Assembly (NCBI RefSeq): GCF_002101375.1
Contig: NZ_CP015207.1
Span: forward strand, 62,001 to 126,000
Direction: 5' to 3'
Source of the DNA: Sporosarcina ureae
GTDB lineage: Bacteria > Bacillota > Bacilli > Bacillales_A > Planococcaceae
DNA: 64,000 bases
Positions 1,721-62,061 of the stretch are shown here, piece after piece (position 1 is the first letter of the stretch; each line of letters starts with the position of its first letter). A program made the translations under genes and the position numbers. The notes under the pieces are model-generated. The model saw only the letters and a program-made list of their open reading frames with translations. It was not told the origin of the DNA and did no database searches.

Positions 1721-2107
1721 ATGGCTGATAAAACAAATGCATCGTTTGTCGGAATGACACCGTCTGGAGATGTCGCACTCGGACGAGTTCAACTGGCACC
1801 TGAAGTACTCGAAGTCATCATTGGTATCGCCACGTCAGAAGTACACGGAGTGATTGCTACCCAAGGGAACTTCGCATCAGGTGTTGCGGAGAAATTGGGA
1901 AAAGTGATGTACGGAAAAGGTGTAAAAACCGAATGGGCAGACGAAGGATTGAAAATCGATGTGTATTGCATTATCGAGTATGGCCATTCCATTCCTACGA
2001 TTGCAGCGAAAATTCAAAATGAAATTCGCCAAGCGATTTTGAATATGACTTCGCTTCAAACGCATGAAGTGAATGTCCACATAACTGGCATTCATTTCGA
2101 AGACTGA
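1721..2107 (+). CDS. yqhY: Asp23/Gls24 family envelope-associated protein YqhY
   Basis: A 128-residue Asp23/Gls24 (DUF322) protein. The core seen here includes PEVLEVIIGIATSEVHGV, a central GVKTE segment and a C-terminal LQTHEVNVHITGIHF strand that is typical of the family. The ribosome binding site TTGGAGGAG stands before the ATG. It is the third gene of accB-accC-yqhY, the same order as in B. subtilis, where YqhY has been linked to control of acetyl-CoA carboxylase activity. No signal peptide or membrane segment is visible. A strong terminator follows, so this is the last gene of the operon. Confidence 0.92.
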   Translation: MADKTNASFVGMTPSGDVALGRVQLAPEVLEVIIGIATSEVHGVIATQGNFASGVAEKLGKVMYGKGVKTEWADEGLKIDVYCIIEYGHSIPTIAAKIQNEIRQAILNMTSLQTHEVNVHITGIHFED

Positions 2108-2585: not shown

Positions 2586-2612
2586 TTGTTTTCCTGCGTT
2601 TTGTGCTATCAT
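2586..2612 (+). promoter_or_regulatory. Candidate extended -10 promoter for the nusB operon
   Basis: TTGTTT (2586-2591) and TGCTATCAT (TGn plus TATCAT, -10 at 2607-2612) lie only 15 bp apart, but the TGn extension could compensate. It sits about 40 bp before the nusB start and downstream of array A. Confidence 0.4.
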
Positions 2613-2649
2613 TAGGTTTTGAAGATGAGCGGTAGAGGAGATAACAATT

Positions 2650-3024
2650 ATGAAACGATGAGAAGCACGTGAAAAAGCAATTCAAACACTGTTTCAGCTG
2701 GACAATAGTGAGATGAATGTGGACGAAGCGATCGGTTATATTGTGGAAGCACCACTGGATTCATTCTATGAACAACTAGTTCGAGGCACAGCGGAACACC
2801 TGACAGAAATCGACAGTGAAATCACAAATAAATTGGAAAACTGGACCATCGACAGATTGCCAAAGATCGAAAGAACAGTATTGCGATTGGCTGTCTATGA
2901 ACTACTTCATAACGAAGAAGTTCCGAATCGGGTCATCATGAACGAAGCGATTGAGCTATGTAAGACGTTTGGTGACGAAAAGTCAGGCCGGTTTGTTAAT
3001 GGAGTACTTTCTAAATTCCAATAA
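2650..3024 (+). CDS. nusB: Transcription antitermination factor NusB with an in-frame TGA at codon 4
   Basis: A ribosome binding site (AGAGGAG) stands in front of ATG at 2650, but the frame reads Met-Lys-Arg-stop-Glu-Ala-Arg-Glu-Lys-Ala. NusB proteins usually begin MKRREAREKA, so a CGA Arg codon seems to have become TGA at 2659-2661. From there the frame is open to 3024 and carries normal NusB sequence (IQTLFQLD, IDRLPKIERTVLRLAVYEL, FVNGVLSKF). The next ATG in frame is at 2713 and would give 103 residues lacking most of the first helix; no good ribosome binding site stands before it. NusB with NusE (S10) binds boxA RNA for rRNA antitermination. Possible explanations are sequencing error, readthrough, re-initiation, or a very recent pseudogene. 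The family call is firm; whether it is expressed is open. Confidence 0.8.
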
Positions 3025-3102: not shown

Positions 3103-3972
3103 ATGTCTAGTAAAAAGATTGATGGCAAAGCAATAGGACAGGAAATCCGGAATGAATTAAAAGAAGAAGTCGCTTCTTTAGTCGCACAAGGAGTTCAACC
3201 TGGACTGGCTGTTATTTTAGTTGGAGAAAATCCAGCATCTGAGACGTATGTGAAAAACAAAGAGAAGTCCAGCAAGGAAGCGGGGATGAAATCTGTGCTT
3301 ACCAAATTGCCGGAAACAGTATCGGAAGAAGATCTTCTAGCTGAAGTGGAGAAACTCAATGAAGACGATACGATCGACGGTATTTTGGTGCAATTGCCTT
3401 TGCCAAAACATATTGATGAAAACAAAGTCATCCGCGCGATTAGCCCTGAGAAAGACGTCGATGGATTCCATCCGATGAATGTCGGGAAAATGTTGATCGG
3501 TCAAGAAACTTTCTTGCCATGTACACCATACGGTATCATGCAGTTGCTTGAACGTTCCAACGTAGATATCGCAGGCAAACACGCAGTGATTATCGGTAGA
3601 AGTAATATCGTAGGAAAACCGATGGGGCAACTTCTTTTGCAAAAAGATGCAACGGTAACGTATTGTCATTCCCGTACAAAAGATTTGAAGAAATTCACGC
3701 AACAAGCGGATATCTTAATCGTCGCAATTGGTATAGCTAAATTCATCACAGGGGATTACATCAAAGAAGGCGCAGTAGTCATTGATGTCGGTATGAACCG
3801 TGATGAAAACGGTAAGCTATGTGGAGACGTTGATTATGAATCAGCGGAGAAGCAGGCTAGTGCTATCACCCCGGTGCCAGGTGGAGTAGGTCCCATGACG
3901 ATTACGATGTTATTGAAAAATACCGTCGAAAGTGCGGAGAAAAAATTAAAAGCACGTACGGAAAATAAGTAA
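3103..3972 (+). CDS. folD: Bifunctional methylenetetrahydrofolate dehydrogenase/cyclohydrolase
   Basis: This 289-residue protein interconverts 5,10-methylene-, methenyl- and 10-formyl-tetrahydrofolate in the cytoplasm. The catalytic Tyr49 and Lys53 are visible in [11 protein letters not shown], followed by [11 protein letters not shown] near 93-103, the nucleotide-binding GRSNIVGKP, and the closing [10 protein letters not shown] motif. An AGTTTGGTGGGAA ribosome binding site precedes the ATG. It lies between nusB and xseA as in B. subtilis. Length is normal. Confidence 0.96.
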
Positions 3973-13815: not shown

Positions 13816-14012
13816 TGGTTGTTTCGTTTATTAGTTGGAAAAGTGAATAATGTGAATGCTAATTCATTTGCGCTCATTAATTCGTGTAAGTGATCATACT
13901 TTTTCTGCCACCGCTCTTAACTTCCCGTAAGCGCTCATACTTCATTGGCGTCCGCTCTATATTCAACTCCAAGCGCTCATACAGGTAGTATAACCGCTCA
14001 TTCCATCACTTT
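13816..14012 (-). repeat. Array B: seven GAGCG-type units, inverted copy of array C
   Basis: Written on the + strand, the GCTC cores start at 13872, 13892 (changed to GATC), 13913, 13933, 13954, 13975 and 13996. Read on the minus strand the spacings are 21,21,21,20,21,20, exactly those of array C at 23.1 kb, and the changed sixth unit is shared. Both copies also share the 3' tail (GAATTAGCATTCAC.., CATTATTCAC, TTTCCAA) and a CATGAGG/CGTGAGG start. It occupies the gap between the spo0A terminator and the FapA-like gene. Confidence 0.88.
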
Positions 14013-23077: not shown

Positions 23078-23275
23078 GAGGAATTATTGTGGTATGAGCG
23101 GTTGGAGAAGCTTTATGAGCGCTTAGAGATGAATATAGAGCGGGTTTGGATGAGGTATGAGCGCTTGTTGGAAGTTAAGAGCGGTTACGGAGAAAGAATG
23201 ATCGCTTACACGAATTAATGAGCGCTAACGAATTGGCATTCATTCATTATTCACCTTTCCAATTTAAAAACGATA
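23078..23275 (+). repeat. Array C: seven GAGCG-type units, inverted copy of array B
   Basis: Cores start at 23096, 23117, 23138, 23159, 23179, 23200 (changed to GATCG) and 23220; spacings are 21,21,21,20,21,20. The variable parts also agree with array B in many places (AGTTAAGAGCGG, CTTACACGAATTAATGAGCG). The shared tail runs to about 23275. It lies between the bkdB terminator and mutA. Confidence 0.88.
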
Positions 23276-35270: not shown

Positions 35271-35592
35271 GCTCTATGGTGCCGCGTATTCGCTCTATGA
35301 AGTCGGTGGAGCGCTCTATTGGGCAGGGTGAGTGCTCTATCGGGATGCGTATGCGCTCTATCGGGCAGTGTGAGCGCTCTATGGGGATGCGTATGCGCTC
35401 TATCCGGAAGTCTGAGTGCTCTATCAGAAAGCCTTGGCGCTCTATCAGGCAGCCTATGCGCTCTATCAAGCAGCTTGAGCGCTCTATCGGGCAGCCTATG
35501 CGCTCTATCAAGCAGCTTGAGTGCTCTACCGGGCAACCTATACGCTCTATACAGCCCCGCAACCGCTCATAACGGCCCGTGCCCCGCTCATT
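35271..35592 (-). repeat. Array D: sixteen units at exactly 21-bp spacing
   Basis: GCTCTAT or GCTCAT cores (GAGC on the minus strand) start at 35271 and then at every 21st base through 35586: 16 units, 15 intervals, with no indel. The rest of the unit follows a loose CNGGCAGNNTNNGC consensus. Units at 35439-35522 alternate between CCTATGC and CTTGAGC endings, so a 42-bp double unit has also been copied. Because 21 is a multiple of 3, long frames stay open on both strands; I treat them as by-products. It lies between the terminators of rnz and proI. Confidence 0.93.
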
Positions 35593-40948: not shown

Positions 40949-41062
40949 GAAATGGGAAATAAAAATACGTTACGTAATAGGACTCACTATGATGCTGGAA
41001 AATGGCCGACGTTTGATTCTGGCAACATTCTTTACATGTATTTATCGATAGAATAATAAAGT

Positions 41063-41194
41063 AGTTGATCGTAAGTGGAAGGCGGCGACTCCCAGAGGAT
41101 CAGCGTGCGCCTTGAGACCCTGGACGTAGCGAAGCGAAGGAAGCGGCTCAAGCCACGCCCTCGGGAAAGCGTCCGCCTGGAACGTCGATCAACG
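41063..41194. repeat. Structured dispersed repeat element with long terminal pairing
   Basis: GTTGATCG..GGAAGGCGG(CG)AC at the left pairs with GTCCGCCTGGAACGTCGATCAAC at the right; inside, GCGCCTTGAG pairs with CTCAAGCCACGC. This GC-rich type (GGCGGCGACTCC ... GGCTCAAGCC ... GAAAGCGTCCGCC) is, as I remember it, common between genes in Bacillaceae and Planococcaceae. No ORF is inside; function unknown. Confidence 0.75.
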
Positions 41195-41448
41195 GTGCCA
41201 ACCCACTTACTTTTCACCTAGATCCACAAATAATAATATTATGTAAAATAGAATAAACTACTTTATAAAGAAGTTGGAATATTCTATCAGAAATGCTATA
41301 GTGTGAATGATAGAGTTCACACATTAGACATAAATGAAAGGCCTCAGAAATGTTACCAAACCTACTACGATTTAACACCCTGACATCACTCTGAGCAAAT
41401 ACCATTACTAGAAAATTTATAATGAACGCTAAAAAGGGTGGGATTTGT
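41195..41448. other. AT-rich gap before the MFS gene
   Basis: AT-rich leader without a convincing ORF or terminator. TATAGTGTG near 41297 could be a -10 for the MFS gene, but no matching -35 is clear. Confidence 0.4.
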
Positions 41449-42711
41449 ATGCTAGCTAAAGAACATAATCAAAACATTTGGAAATACGCATTTGCAAGCG
41501 TCGCCGTCACGGTCAGTTCTCTCGGCTTTGGACGGATGTCATATGGAATCATTATGCCTTTCATGAAAGAGAACCTCGCGATGTCTTATAAACAAGCAGG
41601 ACTACTCGCCACAACGGTGTCAATTGGCTATTTGCTAATGGTGATTTTTGTAGGATTGCTCGTGACCAAATACGGAGCGAAAAAGCTTGTGATTTTTGGA
41701 ACGGGACTCGTTTCATTTGGACTATTTATGTTATCGTTCGTCGCAGGCTATAACTGGACACTTTTCGCCATGCTTCTGCTCGGAATAGGAACTGCATTCA
41801 CCTATACGCCGCTCATTACGATACTCGTCGGCTGGTTTCCGAGGAAACGCGGCATGCTGATCGGCTTTCTCGTTAGCGGCATGGGGCTAGGAACGCTGAT
41901 TTCCAGCGCGTTAATTCCGTTCTTCACCACATGGTTTGGCGATATGGGCTGGCGCTATTTATGGTTCTTCTATGGTGTTGTGTCGATCGTATCTATCATA
42001 ATCGCGCTGATTATTTTACGTGATCCACCGATACCGTTACTAGCTAAGGAAACGCAGGAACATTCATTTTGGAAGAAAGTCTACTTCAATACACGTGTAC
42101 TTCGAGTCGCAATCATCTATGGATTGGTTGGATTTGCGTATTTGGTACCACAAAGTTTCTTGTTTAGCTATATTCTCGAAGTCGGGCTTTCTACATTCCA
42201 AGCAGGGCAGATCATGGCGATCAGCGGAATCATGGCGATTTTCAGTGGTCCGTTATGGGGCGAAGTTTCTGATCGTATCGGACGAAAATCTGCGTTGCTC
42301 GCGACACTTGGAATTGGTGCAGTTTCACTTATCATTCCGGTTATTTTCCCCGTATATAGTGGGCTCATCGTCAGTCAATTCCTTTGGGGTGCGACAATTG
42401 TCGGGATGCTGTCGCTCTGCCAAGCGTTATCTACAGAACAAGTACATCCGATGTATGCACCCGTTGCTCTCGGCTATGTGACGTTCTTCTTCGCGGCAGG
42501 ACAGTTGCTTGGACCGGGTATCGGTGGTTGGATCATCGACCGCTTCGAGCAAATTCCTCTCGCGCTAATTATGTGCAGTGTATTACTCGCTTTGGCGTTC
42601 TTGCTGACAATTCGAATGAACGCGCATGCAGTGGATGATGAGACGGAGTTGGAAGTGAAGCCTGTGTTGGCTACTTTTTGCAAGAAAGAAACTCCTACTA
42701 AGGAAGTATAA
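41449..42711 (+). CDS. MFS transporter
   Basis: A 420-residue permease with about 12 hydrophobic segments. An MFS motif A-like loop (LLVTKYGAKKL and GEVSDRIGRKSALLA) appears in both halves. The opening VSSLGFGRMSYGIIMPFMKE resembles the YbfB/YjiJ type. ATG at 41449 is chosen behind AAGGGTGGG; a start 9 codons upstream has no such site. Substrate unknown. It stands alone and ends in a terminator. Confidence 0.85.
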   Translation: MLAKEHNQNIWKYAFASVAVTVSSLGFGRMSYGIIMPFMKENLAMSYKQAGLLATTVSIGYLLMVIFVGLLVTKYGAKKLVIFGTGLVSFGLFMLSFVAGYNWTLFAMLLLGIGTAFTYTPLITILVGWFPRKRGMLIGFLVSGMGLGTLISSALIPFFTTWFGDMGWRYLWFFYGVVSIVSIIIALIILRDPPIPLLAKETQEHSFWKKVYFNTRVLRVAIIYGLVGFAYLVPQSFLFSYILEVGLSTFQAGQIMAISGIMAIFSGPLWGEVSDRIGRKSALLATLGIGAVSLIIPVIFPVYSGLIVSQFLWGATIVGMLSLCQALSTEQVHPMYAPVALGYVTFFFAAGQLLGPGIGGWIIDRFEQIPLALIMCSVLLALAFLLTIRMNAHAVDDETELEVKPVLATFCKKETPTKEV

Positions 42712-61422: not shown

Positions 61423-62061
61423 TTAGTCATGAAATTTGTACTGTTTAAATGCTTGAACAGGAGGCTTGCGATTTTCAAAGATATCAGGGTCATGGTAGGG
61501 AAGATCCAATTGGCTTAGATCAAAGGAATCGTCTGTACATGATATATATAAACTATAACCTTCTTCATCTTCAGGGAAAAACACTTCTTTTTTTTCGCCA
61601 AATTGAAGTGCTTGATTAATTGTATCCCTTAACCTTTGTAATGCTGCACGATTGCCAACAATAAAGGCATCCCCATGCCAACTTGGCTGTCCATAAATGT
61701 GTAAGTATTCATCTTCCTCACTATATTTCATGGCCTTTTCAATTTCCGCAATTATTTTCAAGGGCTCCTTCTCTGTAATAAAAATATCAGAATGGAAACC
61801 TTGGAATGCTTTTGATTTGAGATTTTGTATAAATACTTCTTTTACATCGCATTCTTGAACGAATAAATACATCTCTTCTTGAATTTCACTTACATACAAA
61901 TAGACACGAATTTGTTGATAGTCCTTTTGGAAAAGGAACTGTTTAAAAAGTGGAGTTGAACAAATTTCTTCTACTAGTATAAAGCCCTTAGAGATGACTT
62001 TTTGGTTAGAAAAGGTTAAATAACTTTTTAGACTATGGCTATACCAATATAAATTACTCAT
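61423..62061 (-). CDS. Hypothetical protein, 212 residues
   Basis: I do not recognise it. It is soluble, acidic in places (YSEEDEYLHIYG, EDEEGYSLY) and contains IVGNRAALQRLRDTINQAL, a helix that recalls small immunity-like proteins, where an index-type call is common in Bacillus. AGGAGGTAAAGT precedes the ATG and a terminator follows, so it is a real single gene. More AT-rich than the core genes. Confidence 0.6.
   Translation of the reverse strand: MSNLYWYSHSLKSYLTFSNQKVISKGFILVEEICSTPLFKQFLFQKDYQQIRVYLYVSEIQEEMYLFVQECDVKEVFIQNLKSKAFQGFHSDIFITEKEPLKIIAEIEKAMKYSEEDEYLHIYGQPSWHGDAFIVGNRAALQRLRDTINQALQFGEKKEVFFPEDEEGYSLYISCTDDSFDLSQLDLPYHDPDIFENRKPPVQAFKQYKFHD

Follow-up and report, generated by a model that had tools for sequence, protein, structure and literature searches.

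A premature UGA at codon 4 of nusB in Sporosarcina sp. P8, probably a recent and strain-specific nonsense mutation

We analysed a stretch of 64,000 nucleotides (the window; positions 62,001 to 126,000 of the contig) from the genome of Sporosarcina sp. P8 (CP015207), which is assembled as one contig of 3,353,765 bp. In this window the nusB gene, which lies between an Asp23-family gene and an intact folD (Table 1), opens ATG AAA CGA TGA and thus carries an in-frame stop at its fourth codon. The stop was confirmed in the assembly, together with the other elements described in the first-pass annotation of this DNA, namely an intact ribosome binding site, the ATG and the rest of the reading frame, which runs through 120 intact NusB codons to a TAA at 3022-3024. 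The translation reads MKR*EAREKAIQTLFQLDNSEMNV... and ends in FVNGVLSKFQ. The TIGR01951 nusB profile matches codons 5-124 with 133.8 bits (cut-off 88.35) and PF01029 gives 122.9 bits (cut-off 23.1), so the gene passes the cut-offs of both NusB profiles but lacks an uninterrupted start-to-stop frame with the basic N-terminal helix 1. No second nusB was found in P8; the only other match in this genome is weak and falls in a 446-aa frame that, judged by size and profile, is probably RsmB.

Table 1. Features of the nusB locus of Sporosarcina sp. P8, in window coordinates.
Feature	Position	Strand	Basis or remark
Asp23-family gene upstream of nusB	1721-2107		open frame
TGCTATCAT, candidate extended -10	2604..2612	+	kept in most close relatives; one base off in P32b
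AGGAG Shine-Dalgarno	2636..2640	+	9 nt 5' of the ATG; kept in close relatives
nusB reading frame with in-frame TGA at codon 4	2650..3024	+	TIGR01951, PF01029
ATG start of nusB	2650-2652	+	frame reading
Overlapping stop/start chain (ATGA 2658, GTGA 2669, ATGA 2713) back to frame	2658..2716	+	
TGA at codon 4	2659..2661	+	sense codon in 80/80 named relatives read
Frame from next in-frame ATG (Met22), 103 aa, without helix 1	2713..3024	+	
folD, intact downstream neighbour of nusB	3103..3972	+	open frame

Among relatives, conservation is high across the nusB leader (about 2570 up to the ATG), which includes TGCTATCAT, a candidate extended -10 element matched by eye. Within the 100 nt upstream, at columns invariant in eight relatives, P8 has two private changes and the others have 0-4, giving no signal of promoter decay by this measure. 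A boxA-like TGTTCTTCTAAAACA at 2465 was considered and dropped, as the aligned relatives do not conserve it. The window also contains intergenic arrays at 2251-2376, 13938-14001, 23094-23157 and 35298-35591, the cores of which are ATGAGCG/ATAGAGCG, spaced by 20-22 nt (about two DNA turns) or double that. Clusters with at least four cores number nine in 264 kb of P8. The spaced core pair has 82 copies in P8 and is present in 10 of the 68 genus genomes, nine of them from the S. ureae group with at least 27 copies and one other with a single match; the reversed control pattern had no match in any of the 68.

Our search of the genus covered 68 genomes; 67 gave a match at threshold, and in 66 of them nusB was matched. 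The remaining two are incomplete (88% and 75%); G058 has a weak RsmB-like match only and G050 has none. P8 is the only one of the 66 genomes whose nusB frame is cut at codon 4: its match sits in an open frame of 120 aa, against 125 aa or more in each of the other 65. A second set consisted of 80 loci from named relatives (the best 80 of 112 found), with P8 as the single isolate of its species compared, and none of these 80 loci has a stop at codon 4. The residue at this codon was read by script as R in 39 loci, H in 39 and T in two; both T readings come from rows shifted by one residue, in which inspection by eye gives H (L076) and R (L079). The arginine described as conserved in the first-pass annotation is therefore a feature of the closest relatives and does not hold for the family as a whole.

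In a tree built from 15 rows and 1.8 kb, P8 groups beside strains P2 and P34 with support of 99/98. Both sisters have AGA at codon 4 and the S. ureae-group outgroups have CGA, and hence CGA and AGA are equally parsimonious as the ancestral codon. Of the change from CGA to TGA that had been proposed, the TGA stands, and CGA is the likely, though not the only parsimonious, origin; as far as these codons indicate, a C to T transition (CGA>TGA) would be the likelier route to the stop.

Several lines of evidence support the proposal that the change is recent. The disabling change is absent from the close relatives, as is expected of a young nonsense allele. Besides the stop, P8 has three synonymous and no missense changes in codons 5-124 that set it apart from all eight close relatives. 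At nine more sites P8 differs from both P2 and P34 and shares its state with other relatives; the only missense among these nine, at codon 49, is most simply explained as a change in P2/P34. Possible missense and synonymous changes stand in a ratio of 2.5 to 3.3 (site counts of 792:239, or of 1240:495 if transitions are given a weight of 3), and 7.5-9.9 missense changes would thus be expected had nusB been unconstrained for the whole branch. It follows that nusB has been constrained for most of the P8 branch, and relaxed selection was not seen in the rest of the P8 frame. The missing missense changes would fit a young stop and, equally, a protein that is still made and selected.

One alternative is that the stop is a consensus or assembly error and that the true base gives a sense codon at 2659. 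We consider this unlikely, although only one base in one assembly is concerned. Errors in PacBio consensus sequences are mainly indels, which counts against an error here, and the break in P8 nusB is a substitution and not an indel-type error. When gene calls of strain P17a were compared with P8 over 264 kb, 187 of the 248 calls had matches, of which 173 were intact and 14 were flagged, with nusB as the only clear break. By eye, 13 of the flagged cases comprised nusB, seven ORFs with a stop ahead of the likely true start (accC and ispA in the window among them) and five short or doubtful ORFs. The fourteenth, at 41038-41510, is the only frame-change match in P8 and also argues against an error, since it sits mostly between window ORFs of at least 130 aa. 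In the reverse comparison 184 of 241 P8 calls had matches in P17a, 174 of them intact and 10 flagged; the latter, flagged automatically, are eight stops and two frame changes, including an M3 peptidase. This M3-family peptidase is intact in P8 (57369-59177), and its P17a counterpart is split over two frames.

The published account of the P8 genome bears on the same question. P8, a soil isolate from Los Angeles, was PacBio-sequenced into a single contig, but the coverage figures given are inconsistent, with 707x in Table 1 of that paper and more than 150x per strain, with a six-strain mean of 166x, in its text (PMC5930826). Sequencing of P8 is deep under either figure. The main text of the paper contains no mention of nusB, nonsense, premature stop, pseudogene or antitermination (PMC5930826). 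Strains of the collection to which P8 belongs are described as tracing to isolations made by Pregerson in the 1970s, so it is possible that the mutation arose in storage.

It is likewise improbable that P8 makes functional NusB by UGA readthrough, such that an R4W protein made through tRNA-Trp suffices for normal antitermination and the gene remains under selection. The absence of missense changes on the P8 branch would agree with this, as would the tolerance of codon 4 for either R or H. In addition, readthrough of catA86-TGA in B. subtilis is reported at 6% with normal RF2 (prfB+) and at 19-54% in prfB mutants (PMC7918605). However, 12 other genus genomes, in which nusB has no codon-4 stop, carry a tRNA-Trp with the same 73 nt as that of P8. 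In P8 and its close relatives the anticodon stem of this tRNA (L132:1333-1405 in P8), parsed by eye, is topped by a G-U pair, which might favour readthrough; the pair is a trait of the clade and not of P8, and may hint at clade-wide UGA leakiness. RF2 of P8 is normal and keeps the GGQ and SPF motifs, with A54 as its sole private residue among the 33 loci compared (of 66 genomes over the cut-off). S329G, considered as a weakening change in RF2, was private among eight genomes but not among the 33 loci, and was rejected.

Nor was there any sign of a dedicated decoder of UGA among the tRNAs scanned. No UCA-anticodon tRNA was present among the 49 Rfam tRNA matches in P8 that we scanned with ARAGORN; 69 tRNAs are given for P8 (PMC5930826), so 20 lie outside the 49. 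A pattern for UCA-anticodon tRNAs had 20 matches in P8 against six in the reversed control, and none of the 20 was such a tRNA. Three fell within ordinary tRNAs in a shifted register. Of the remaining 17, scanning of 16 revealed no tRNA at the match, and the seventeenth is the place of one of those scanned. The tRNA-Sec model (RF01852) gave 17 matches in P8, none over the cut-off, with 5/14 over it in the control genomes. No structured recoding element was found in the leader RNA, where the fold is not unusual (z 0.37; 126 out of 200 shuffled sequences fold equally well). The suggestion in the first-pass annotation that the stop is tolerated by readthrough thus finds no sign in tRNA-Trp, the 49 tRNAs or RF2 beyond ordinary leakage. 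A related idea, that NusB is made only through UGA readthrough as low-level R4W protein, tying rRNA antitermination to translational accuracy, we regard as very doubtful; if it were true, the amount of R4W NusB would follow the status of release factor and tRNA-Trp.

Rescue by re-initiation had also been suggested. The next in-frame ATG is indeed at 2713, but the sole Shine-Dalgarno match before it is GTGA, at a distance of 1 nt, a poor arrangement that does not amount to translational coupling. The overlapping stop/start chain in Table 1 regains the frame; such chains are common by chance (46 of 335 control codons from 28 hand-picked window ORFs, and 8 of 39 within the first 30 codons), and the chain was rejected as a rescue. 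The Met22 product lacks seven of the 34 residues invariant in a 29-row alignment, including the basic N-terminus. Helix 1 would be wholly lost, since it occupies residues 3-18 in a structure modelled for P32b, a relative with an intact gene (mean pLDDT 87.7). In E. coli the N-terminus of NusB binds boxA RNA. Re-initiation, whether direct or through the chain, with a working Met22 product is accordingly hard to credit, and as a functional rescue the start at 2713 is unlikely.

Our preferred explanation, which we hold to be probable, is that P8 carries a real, recent and strain-specific nonsense mutation in its only nusB, leaving a null or strong hypomorph with ordinary UGA leakage. Ribosomes would start at 2650 and nearly all would halt after MKR. 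A small leak, probably of Trp from tRNA-Trp, would yield trace full-length R4W NusB, and the Met22 start would give little functional protein. P8 would then approximate a natural nusB knock-down, tolerated because NusB-S10 rRNA antitermination is non-essential in such bacteria. A weak point against nusB loss comes from what we take to be a boxA-like motif after the 16S gene: the site is the same at the one rRNA locus recovered from P8 as at six loci in P33 and one in P17a, which may suggest an antitermination system without visible decay. Genome-wide the motif occurs at three places in P8 and at two in the reversed control.

Known systems offer partial parallels. The E. coli allele nusB5 is reportedly a nusB mutant, and E. 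coli nusB mutants would resemble P8 in that the same factor is lost or reduced in living cells, although theirs are laboratory-made. Strain-specific in-frame stops and young pseudogenes, as described in PMC7918605, likewise involve one stop in an intact, constrained gene of one lineage; the P8 stop differs in affecting codon 4 of a gene for a transcription factor, one found in 66 of the 68 genus genomes searched, and is otherwise unremarkable. The leakiness of TGA in B. subtilis (catA86-TGA, spoIIR-TGA and the prfB suppressors; PMC7918605) also concerns UGA in a Bacillales mRNA and indicates that reading at a few per cent is possible. In contrast to the prfB suppressors, no suppressing change was recognised in the sequences of P8 RF2 or tRNA-Trp.

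A review describes NusB as dispensable in B. subtilis (PMC12448304), in agreement with the first-pass annotation. According to the same review, B. subtilis lacks a mechanism by which a premature stop in an mRNA would lead to removal of RNA polymerase (PMC12448304), and therefore folD and later genes should still be transcribed. For P8 we would expect nothing worse than a reduced rate of rRNA synthesis or a degree of cold sensitivity. Overall, the stop most likely makes an ordinary, recent nonsense allele in a dispensable gene, and some UGA leakage would remain. If this is confirmed, P8 would offer a natural nusB near-null among Gram-positive spore-formers, useful for probing the role of NusB there; beyond this, the nusB of P8 is a single nonsense allele, possibly acquired over decades of storage.
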